Below, one piece after another: positions 11,838-44,426 of a stretch of 64,000 nt of DNA (position 1 is the first letter of the stretch; the number at the start of each line of letters is the position of its first letter). This DNA comes from Verrucomicrobiia bacterium. GTDB taxonomy: Bacteria; Verrucomicrobiota; Verrucomicrobiia; Limisphaerales; JAEYXS01. Made by a program: the position numbers and the translations under genes. Where the stretch lies: NCBI GenBank assembly GCA_036405135.1, contig DASWYF010000047.1, forward strand, positions 62,001-126,000, read 5' to 3'. The notes beneath the pieces were generated by a model. That model was not told where the DNA came from and searched no databases. It saw only the letters and a list, made by a program, of their open reading frames with translations.

Positions 11838-12189
11838 GTGCCATCAGGCACGAAAGATTCATGGATGTCTGGAAAAATCGTTACGTAGTGACGAAAAATC
11901 TCAAGAATCGTAAGGAGCAAATCTTGCGTCGCTACGCGACGCTGGGATTCTGAGATTCAAAACCACGGGTTAGAGCGGTTTTAGAAATTATGTAGCGATG
12001 TGGTGGCGAGAAAAAGGAAAGCGGTCTTTTTGGGTTCTGGCTTCGTTTCGGCTCAGTCACAGGGTCTTTGGAACCTGCTCCTTCGCCAAAGCCTCGCCAT
12101 AACCCAAAAATCCTCGCTCCTCACCGCTACATAATTTCTAAAAACGCTCTAAAACCCGTGGCTATGAATCCGCCCTCGCTTACGCGAGG
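11838..12189 (+). repeat. Modular palindrome cassette, copy A
   Basis: Ordered palindromes joined by short conserved linkers: gtgcc-atca-ggcac (11838-11851) followed by gaaagattcat; cgttac-gta-gtgacg (11879-11893); gcgtcgc-tac-gcgacgc (11926-11942) preceded by atcttg; a cacgggtt...aacccgtg pair (outer ends 11963 and 12161), then ctatgaatc; and cctcgc-ttac-gcgagg (12174-12189). Copy B at 44234-44426 has the same modules and linkers in the same order on the other strand. In copy A the two halves of the cacgggtt palindrome are pushed apart by a long inverted repeat; in copy B they abut. Confidence 0.8.
11963..12161. repeat. ~199-bp near-palindrome (long inverted repeat)
   Basis: The left arm from 11963 reads ccacgggtt, agagcg, then gttttagaaattatgtagcg. 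The right arm ending at 12161 is its near-exact reverse complement (cgctacataatttctaaaaac, gctct, aaaacccgtgg). The match continues inward, with gaps, through tttttgggtt (12027-12036) against aacccaaaaa (12101-12110) and ggcttcg/cgaagcc-like words. As single-stranded DNA or RNA it would form one very long imperfect hairpin. It carries no coding frame. It may be a small non-autonomous element inserted in the cacgggtt palindrome of the cassette, or an expansion of that palindrome. Confidence 0.75.
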
Positions 12190-12415: not shown

Positions 12416-12432
12416 GTGAAAGGATCTGGGAA

Positions 12433-12511
12433 ACATCGAACATCCAACGCCCAACCTCGAACATCGAGAGGGGATTTCGAGGACGAGGACGACGACGAGC
12501 ACGAAGGACGA
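12433..12511. repeat. Degenerate intergenic repeats
   Basis: Two word families stand side by side: 'gaacatccaacgcccaac' with variants of catcgaac (12433-12470), and a gaggac/gacgag purine-rich run (12479-12511). Each is an imperfect array of 6-10-base words without an open frame. Similar low-complexity words are scattered between genes in many Verrucomicrobiota-like genomes; this is from memory and was not checked here. Confidence 0.55.
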
Positions 12512-12540
12512 TTGGGAAGGTTTGAAAAGAATTAGGGGAA

Positions 12541-42195: not shown

Positions 42196-44226
42196 ATGAG
42201 GGGACCTGCGGACTATCCTACTATGGTGCTATTGGTGGACGATCAATCCATCATAGCTGAGGCTGTACGCCGCAGTCTCGCCAACGAGCCGGACATCAAT
42301 TTCCACTACTGCTCCAATCCACTGGATGCCATTGCGCTTTCCCATCAGATCCGTCCCACGGTGATCTTGCTGGATTTGGTGATGCCGGAACTCGATGGCC
42401 TTACTTTGTTGCAACGTTTTCGCGATGATCCTGTCACGCAAGGCGTCCCCATCATCGTTCTTTCTATTCAAGACGAGCCGACGACCAAGAGTGATGCGTT
42501 CGCAGCCGGTGCGGATGATTATCTGGTCAAACTGCCCAATCGCATCGAACTCGTCGCACGCATCCGCTATCACACGCGCGGTTATGTGGGGCAGTTGCAA
42601 CGTGATGAAGCGTATCGCGCCTTGCGTGAAAGCCAGCAGCAACTGGTGGACAGCAACACCACGCTCATCTCGCTGAATCAAAAGCTCGAAGACGCCACCA
42701 AGGCCAAGTCCGAGTTCCTCGCGAACATGAGCCACGAGGTGCGCACGCCGATGAACGGTGTCATCGGCATGACGGCCTTGCTCGCGGAGACGGAATTGCA
42801 CGCCGAGCAGCGCGATTATGTTGAAACGATCCGCACCAGCGCGGAAGCGCTGCTGACAATCATCAACGACATTCTTGACTTTTCGAAGATCGAATCTGGA
42901 CGCCTGGAGATCGAGAATCATCCGTTCGAGATACGTACATGCGTGGAGGAGGCTTTGGAGCTCGTCGCATCCAAAGCAGCGGAGAAGAATCTCGATCTCG
43001 CCTGTGTCACAGATGATGAAGTCCCGTTGATGGTTTATGGTGATGTCACACGTCTGCGTCAGATTCTCGTCAACCTCGTCAGCAACGCGGTGAAGTTCAC
43101 GGCGAAGGGAGAAGTGGTCATTTATGTGAAGAATGACCCGGACGGGCTGCATTTCTGCGTGCAAGACACGGGCATCGGTATTCCGAAAGAGAAGCAGGAT
43201 CGTCTCTTTAAATCTTTCAGCCAGGTGGATGGTTCCACTACACGCCAGTTCGGCGGCACCGGACTGGGGCTTGCCATCTGCAAACGCCTCACAGAATTGA
43301 TGGGCGGAAAGATTTGGGTGGAGAGCGAGGGTGGCAAAGGCTCCTTGTTTCATTTCACTGTTCGCGCAGAGCATGCTGATCAACCTTACGATACTGTGAC
43401 GGGCACGGGCTCGGCATTGCGTCGCAAGAAACTGCTCGTGCTGGAAGACCATGCGCCATCTTGCCAGTCACTGCGCCAGATGGTCATTCCGTGGGGCATG
43501 GATGTGGATTTTGCCTCGGATGCTGAGACTTTGCTCGCCCGTCTCGGGCAGGCACCAGCACCGCATCTGCTGTTGATCGATCGCGAATTGCCCAATACGC
43601 AAGTGGAGAAACTGGTCACACAGATCCGCGCTCATGAGGTCGGCGTGACATTGCCTGTCGTGTTGTTGTCCGTTCAACGCCTGCGAAGTTCAGATGATGT
43701 TTTGCGCGGGTTTGGCATCACGCAAAGTGTTCTGAAACCCGCCCGCCGTTCCGCGCTTTACGAATCGTTGACCCGAGCTGTTTCCGTGGCAGATGCTGCG
43801 CCCAAGCCGCTCGCCAGTACAGATCTGGATACGACTTTGGCTGCGCAAATGCCTTTGCGCATCTTGCTGGCGGATGACAATCCGGTGAACTTGAAGGTGG
43901 GGCAGTCTTATCTGCACAAGATGGGTTATCGTCCTGAACTGGCCGCGAATGGTTTCGAAGTGCTCGCTGCACTGGAGCAGCATCCGTTTGATCTCGTGAT
44001 CCTTGACGTGCAAATGCCCGAGATGGACGGGTTCACCGCCGCACGTGAGATCCGTAAGCGCTATTCGGATGATAAACGTCCGAAGATCATCGCCATCACC
44101 GGCAACGCAATGGAAGGCGACCGCGAGAAATGCCTCGAAGCGGGGATGGATGATTACATCAGCAAACCCGTCCGCCCGAAGGAAATCGAGGCAGCGTTAA
44201 GGCGTTGGGGGAAGCAGAAGCGGTAA
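42196..44226 (+). CDS. Hybrid histidine kinase with WspR-type N-terminal receiver
   Basis: 676 residues: receiver 1 (10-135; D15/D16, phospho-acceptor D60), coiled linker, HisKA ([16 protein letters not shown], His ~179), HATPase ([26 protein letters not shown]), receiver 2 (~415-535; [15 protein letters not shown]) and receiver 3 (~555-675; [23 protein letters not shown]). Receiver 1 plus the start of its linker (VLLVDDQ...[31 protein letters not shown]...[15 protein letters not shown]) closely matches what I remember of WspR, a diguanylate cyclase response regulator, yet here the output is a kinase and no GGDEF is present. ATG at 42223 is an alternative start. Confidence 0.9.
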
Positions 44227-44233
44227 GTTCATT

Positions 44234-44426
44234 CCTCACGTTAGCGAAGTAAGATTCATAGCACGGGTTTTAACCCGTGCCTGGCTTTTCCCGTTTCAGC
44301 GTCGCATAGCGACGCAAGACTTCTACCGATCTGAGATTCTTCCGTCACTACGTGACGATGTTCCGATCGAAACACAAACGGCGGCTTGAAAAGCCGCCGC
44401 TATGAATCTTTCGTGCCGATCGGCAC
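44234..44426 (-). repeat. Modular palindrome cassette, copy B (inverted)
   Basis: Read on the minus strand from 44426: gtgcc-gatc-ggcac then gaaagattcat; an extra module cggcggctt-ttc-aagccgccg (44379-44399); cgtcac-gta-gtgacg (44343-44357); cttgcgtcgc-tat-gcgacgc (core 44299-44315); gcacgggtt-aa-aacccgtgc (44261-44280) then tatgaatc; and cttcgc-taac-gtgagg (44234-44249). The order and linkers match copy A at 11838-12189. It fills most of the gap between the kinase and rsfS. Confidence 0.8.

Follow-up and report, generated by a model that had tools for sequence, protein, structure and literature searches.

Two intergenic segments of the window (the whole 64-kb stretch of DNA analysed here) carry short palindromes in the same order on opposite strands, and raise the question of what kind of unit such a cassette is and what made or moved it. 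Both cassettes sit at the coordinates and in the module order reported in the preliminary description (Table 1), which saw in each of them one string of five palindromes with shared linkers. The linkers gaaagattcat(ag) and ctatgaatc(ttt), however, are reverse complements of each other, as are GAAAGATTCATAG and CTATGAATCTT(T) of copy B, and the cassette is thus composed of two mirrored halves. Each of the two inverted half-elements spans ~90 nt and reads h1 - AAGATTCATAG - h2 - 18-20 nt - h3; the full order is h1-linker-h2-spacer-h3, mirrored as h4-spacer-h5-linker-h6. Order and geometry are constant throughout an alignment of 29 half-elements: h1, 11-14 nt with TAG at the end, h2 of ~20 nt, usually 18-20 nt of unrelated sequence, h3, and AAGA. 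AAGA(TTC) recurs after h1 and after h3, and ATAG or GTAG occupies the outer foot of h2 and h5. In the gene-less form, the two ends lie ~1-22 bp apart as an inverted doublet.

Table 1. Features of the two palindrome cassettes in the window.
Feature	Position	Strand
Copy A, six-hairpin element, h2 deleted, MITE in h5	11838..12189	+
Copy A h1, GTGCC-atca-GGCAC	11838..11851	+
Copy A outer linker GAAAGATTCAT, TAG foot and h2 deleted	11852..11862	+
Copy A h3, CGTTAC-gta-GTGACG, imperfect stem	11879..11893	+
Copy A h4, GCGTCGC-tac-GCGACGC	11926..11942	+
Copy A h5, CCACGGGT...ACCCGTGG, split by MITE	11963..12161	+
MITE, 177 bp, TA-flanked, inverted-repeat, separate from the element	11973..12149	.
Copy A outer linker CTATGAATC, mirror of GATTCATAG	12162..12170	+
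Copy A h6, CCTCGC-ttac-GCGAGG	12174..12189	+
Copy B, complete six-hairpin doublet	44234..44426	-
Copy B h1, GTGCC-gatc-GGCAC	44413..44426	-
Copy B outer linker GAAAGATTCATAG with ATAG foot	44400..44412	-
Copy B h2, CGGCGGCTT-ttc-AAGCCGCCG, REP-like hairpin	44379..44399	-
Copy B h3, CGTCAC-gta-GTGACG	44343..44357	-
Copy B h4, GCGTCGC-tat-GCGACGC	44299..44315	-
Copy B h5, GCACGGGTT-aa-AACCCGTGC, then CTATGAATCTT	44261..44280	-
Copy B h6, CTTCGC-taac-GTGAGG, imperfect	44234..44249	-

Copy B occupies the space between a hybrid histidine kinase gene (42196-44226, +) and the convergent rsfS (stop codon 44439, -), while copy A has fpg/mutM (ends 11804) and zwf (starts 12541) as its neighbours. Two of the palindromes listed earlier have imperfect stems, cttcgc..gtgagg (copy B, h6) and cgttac..gtgacg (copy A, h3). 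The module that seemed additional in copy B is simply the regular h2, which copy A has lost. The contrast once drawn with a simple REP element is not supported either, as h2 with its ATAG/GTAG foot is REP-like and the doublet REPIN-like; each half carries three hairpins instead of the single hairpin of a REP, and the unusual features are the two additional hairpins per end and the transposase subclass. An Rfam scan of the window at gathering thresholds gave no match. Folded as single-stranded DNA, copy B shows strong structure (z = -6.3); its minimum-energy structure mixes local hairpins with pairing between the halves, and we set it aside as evidence for six separate hairpins. A fold comparison with artificial homotypic pairs was trivial, since a mirrored copy always self-folds, and was discarded.

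Copy A is longer than copy B only because of a 177-bp MITE placed within the loop of cacgggtTAaaacccgtg, its h5. TA is duplicated on both sides of the insertion (11971-11972 and 12150-12151), and taking the MITE out of h5 leaves CCACGGGTTAAAACCCGTGG, a normal hairpin. The MITE family (GAGCGGTTTTAGAAATTATG...) has ~25 further copies of 170-182 bp in the genome and several in congener G002; its copies are TA-flanked wherever both ends are resolved, and terminal inverted repeats and TA target duplication are confirmed. In a second six-hairpin element (C1, L065), a MITE end adjoins h2, apparently at the TA of the linker. The window also holds, at 12428-12514, a short independent intergenic repeat (aacatcgaacatccaacgcccaacctcgaacatcgag...) that both congeners carry at dozens of sites.

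Searching the 5.8-Mb genome with a covariance model built on the half-element recovers 56 halves (E<0.001), almost all of them in inverted doublets; one congener yields 31 halves (E<0.01) and a second one 6. Close-neighbour halves stand in the +- orientation in 26 of 28 cases and otherwise in 2, and the order of modules is fixed genome-wide. Were the resemblance between the two window loci a local coincidence or duplication, a reading in whose favour stands only that the preliminary description knew two copies, neither the ~56 halves across the genome nor the orthologous copies shared with congeners would be expected; these refute it, and we give it practically no chance. The spacers of the genomic copies are unrelated to one another, and thus no recent burst of transposition is visible.

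The suggestion that base pairing is conserved over sequence is borne out by the same alignment of 29 half-elements, in which 95.9% of cells pair. Changes on both sides of the stem are seen in 107 cells, against 36.8 in shuffles; these cells are not independent events, as a few stem types keep recurring through descent. Shuffling lowers the covariation score from 0.436 to 0.134, and the signal is lost when the partners are slid. One-sided changes of the G-U type are nearly absent from the stems, a rarity that fits pairing as DNA (or the exchange of whole stem types) better than pairing as RNA. The idea of interchangeable hairpins survives in part: stem types do recur in different combinations, but linkers and geometry are fixed, the stem types are few, and the halves are non-randomly heterotypic.

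A transposase, RAYT-type or other, was among the things to look for, and an IS200-like Y1 gene is found inside the element itself. At C20, this tnpA lies exactly between two halves of the cassette family, identical to each other at all 21 scored stem pairs. The genome has six such IS200-like tnpA genes, encoding 148-150 aa, and the other five (C6, C34, C33, C35 and C2) have the same three-hairpin layout with different linkers. A second gene-less set, including half-elements and one doublet, carries the linker CGATGGTAG, which matches the ends of the C6 tnpA. Gene and gene-less copies thus agree in linker in two families, and each transposase seems to go with its own linker, stem types such as GCGTCGC/GCGACGC being common to several linker families. 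Dispersed intergenic copies plus a cognate transposase flanked by the same hairpins, as seen here, are features of a REPIN/BIME system, in which inverted REP doublets are mobilised by RAYT (Bertels and Rainey 2011 PMC3116915). The likeness extends to inverted doublets of short hairpins with a GTAG-type outer foot, dispersed between genes, and to a single-copy transposase bearing the same ends; the differences are three hairpins per half at fixed spacing versus one, another transposase class, and doublets that are heterotypic at all three positions (PMC3116915).

The proteins from C20 and C6 score 80 and 70 bits with the IS200 model NF033573 (cut-off 55), and 26 bits against a cut-off of 80, or no match, with the RAYT model NF047646. 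Among solved structures, IS200/IS605 TnpA comes closest to them. Their sequences contain the HUH, WQ and Y---Q--HH motifs, and identity with class-2 RAYT/TnpAREP was rejected on the presence of Y---Q--HH instead of Y---NP and on a REP_Tyr_transpos model score below the cut-off. Judged by motifs, length and copy number, the predicted proteins match TnpA-Y1 subclass 1.2, which is characterised by HUH, WQ, Y---Q--HH, ~148-150 aa, a conserved C-terminal extension and low copy number (Quentin et al. 2018 PMC6006769). Those authors list this subclass with 'no' REP, describe typical IS200 end structures as generally absent from it, and place it mainly in Cyanobacteria and Bacteroidetes (Quentin et al. 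2018 PMC6006769). The length of ~150 aa, the HUH, WQ and Y---Q--HH motifs, the C-terminal extension and the low copy number are common to both, whereas here we find three-hairpin ends and dispersed gene-less copies, mainly in other phyla (PMC6006769). Our literature search, which covered papers outside subscription, returned no account of repeats tied to subclass 1.2. These elements would give a substrate to a transposase subclass described as having none, and its biochemistry becomes directly testable. Elsewhere in the genome, a Y1 transposase-like domain lies within a 1106-aa open frame (L058, C13:139478-139756).

How general the three-hairpin ends are was surveyed with 80 tnpA relatives from a species-genome survey, by a search for hairpins in the 200 nt on either side of each gene. 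The relatives carry Y...Q..H[HN] in 76 of 80 cases and WQxGY in 79 of 80, and, with phyla taken from the record titles, include Verrucomicrobiota, Planctomycetota, Acidobacteriota, Bacteroidota, Calditrichota, Chloroflexota, Fibrobacterota and Deltaproteobacteria. A relaxed triple pattern is present in 38% of upstream and 40% of downstream flanks, compared with 1% when flanks are taken at a distance of 500-700 nt and with 3 of 780 sequences after dinucleotide shuffling; on neither side does it occur in 41 of the 80 loci, Bacteroidota often among them. The strict triple geometry occurs in 52 of 156 flanks of subclass-1.2 tnpA (33%) and in 2 of 148 distant flanks (1%). The percentages of both the relaxed and the strict pattern are generous because the spacing limits were set after the first loci had been viewed, with the controls held to the same limits. 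The four bases before h2 at the multi-phylum loci are ATAG (18), GTAG (18) or TTAG (5). A different family of the same order (genome G029, loci L111 and L122) has gene-less doublets too, built from other hairpin sequences. One tnpA relative with triple-hairpin ends (L140) lies on a contig titled 'MAG: Klebsiella pneumoniae', a name that is probably wrong for the assembly.

This survey also bears on whether the cassettes are ordinary RAYT/REP elements of class-2 TnpAREP, the extra hairpins being unrelated neighbouring REPs. The ATAG/GTAG foot on h2 is indeed that of GTAG REPs, and class-2 RAYT genes also occur in the genome. The geometry of h1 and h3 around h2 is nevertheless fixed in several phyla, the strict pattern is found at none of the 56 flanks of 28 class-2 RAYT genes, and the gene between the ends encodes Y---Q--HH, not Y---NP, all of which makes this account highly improbable. 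The fixed three-hairpin geometry across several phyla raises the question of what role the extra hairpins have in the recognition of single-stranded DNA.

IS200/IS605 elements such as IS608 and ISDra2 share with the present ones a Y1 HUH transposase and subterminal hairpins. They have one hairpin per end, and their ends are not inverted copies, whereas in the present elements a single three-hairpin unit forms both ends, in inverted orientation. We interpret the cassette, with considerable confidence, as a REPIN-like, gene-less and non-autonomous IS200-like element with triple-hairpin ends, presumably mobilised by a subclass-1.2 TnpA. Its full form would be [h1-linker-h2-spacer-h3] - tnpA - [h4-spacer-h5-linker-h6], with ~90-nt three-hairpin units at fixed spacing as ends. 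We envision that the subclass-1.2 Y1 (HUH) transposase would recognise the middle hairpin h2, with (A/G)TAG at its 5' foot as in a GTAG REP, on single-stranded DNA, a mode proposed by analogy with the known chemistry of IS608, ISDra2 and TnpAREP (PMC6006769, PMC8266576). The linker would confer family specificity, h1 and h3 may act as accessory hairpins by which the protein or the cleavage sites are brought into position, and cleavage would take place next to the hairpins, possibly, as a guess, at the AAGA(TTC) after h1 and after h3. The same protein would then move or copy the gene-less doublets in trans. Against this reading weigh the unrelated spacers of the copies, the 41 loci in which neither flank has the triple pattern, and the stem conservation and the missing excision products and clean empty sites treated below.

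Comparison with two congeners, in which copies recur at orthologous sites, gives 11 pairs of half-elements in orthologous positions. Identity at these pairs is 96.7% for stems, 84% for linkers, 75% for loops, 52% for spacers and 48% for flanks, the last two near the level that global alignment gives for unrelated DNA, and one h5 pair has changed from A-T to G-C on both sides. With stems at 96.7% and spacers and flanks at ~50%, either selection or conversion from copy to copy preserves the stems. At the copy-B site, G002 has 115 nt between rsfS and the kinase, and the element is absent; its spacer sequence differs, and loss is therefore as possible as gain. The G001 site matching C20 has remnants only, without tnpA, and a tnpA copy of the same family is located elsewhere in that genome. 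Among the sites compared, neither an excision product nor a clean empty site turned up, and for copy A the congeners offer no comparable site, as fpg and zwf were not found together there.

That stems stay conserved at orthologous sites suggests maintenance by the host, over and above selfish mobility. Taken further, it would mean that the doublets are mobile-element-derived structures (terminator, mRNA 3' end, or nucleoid or gyrase site) that are maintained by the host and no longer move, and the contrast between near-identical stems and linkers and saturated spacers and flanks is what such a role would leave. So is the gene context: of 30 elements, 12 have convergent and 15 tandem neighbours, and only 3 have divergent ones (approximate, with longest open frames as gene calls). 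Against this stand the differing presence of the element at the copy-B site between congeners, the persistence of autonomous tnpA copies with the same ends, and the rarity of G-U pairs, which argues against a role as RNA alone; the stems could also be kept by conversion among the copies. We regard a purely host-maintained, immobile structure as unlikely, if by no means negligible, next to the mobile-element reading. Frozen stems versus saturated spacers at orthologous sites offer a direct handle on selfish versus useful repeats.

A further property of the doublets concerns how their halves are combined. In the 25 close doublets that could be resolved, every hairpin differs from its mirror partner at all three positions; the one identity that the script tallies comes from copy A, whose h2 position holds a gap. 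Re-pairing the same halves at random yields 7.8 doublets with one or more identical hairpins (the lowest value in 2000 trials being 1), to be read with the 25 doublets being related by descent and so representing fewer independent events. The C20 halves, ~500 bp apart with the gene between them, are identical in all three hairpins; the halves at the G001 tnpA locus are not identical. Some doublets of G029 (L111, L122) have identical h2 and h5, and heterotypy at all positions is thus shown for this genus only. The accessible part of Di Nocera et al. (2013 PMC3733652) describes GTAG-footed palindromes, including in the verrucomicrobium O. terrae, and double palindromic TIRs at some transposases (TIRtrons), and notes a heterodimer preference in REPs, without obvious explanation, for which protection from SbcCD-type cleavage is suggested. 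GTAG-footed palindromes and heterodimer preference are common ground, while the three-hairpin unit and the link to this transposase subclass are absent from that part of the account (PMC3733652). Protection of the SbcCD type would fit the heterotypic doublets seen here, and all-heterotypic doublets beside the identical C20 ends form a clean data set for the unexplained preference.

Taking these observations further, we propose tentatively, and with more doubt than conviction, that subclass-1.2 Y1 transposases own widespread elements with three-hairpin ends (h1 - DTAG-h2 - h3), whose gene-less pairs would survive only if every hairpin differs from its mirror partner and would be kept by selection as host structures at orthologous sites. 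A different arrangement is seen at L273 (C33:14800-18700), where, at 1270-2625, three half-elements in the same orientation lie within 1.4 kb in place of the usual inverted doublets, all of the uncommon type TTCGC - GCATGGGTT - CGTCGC.
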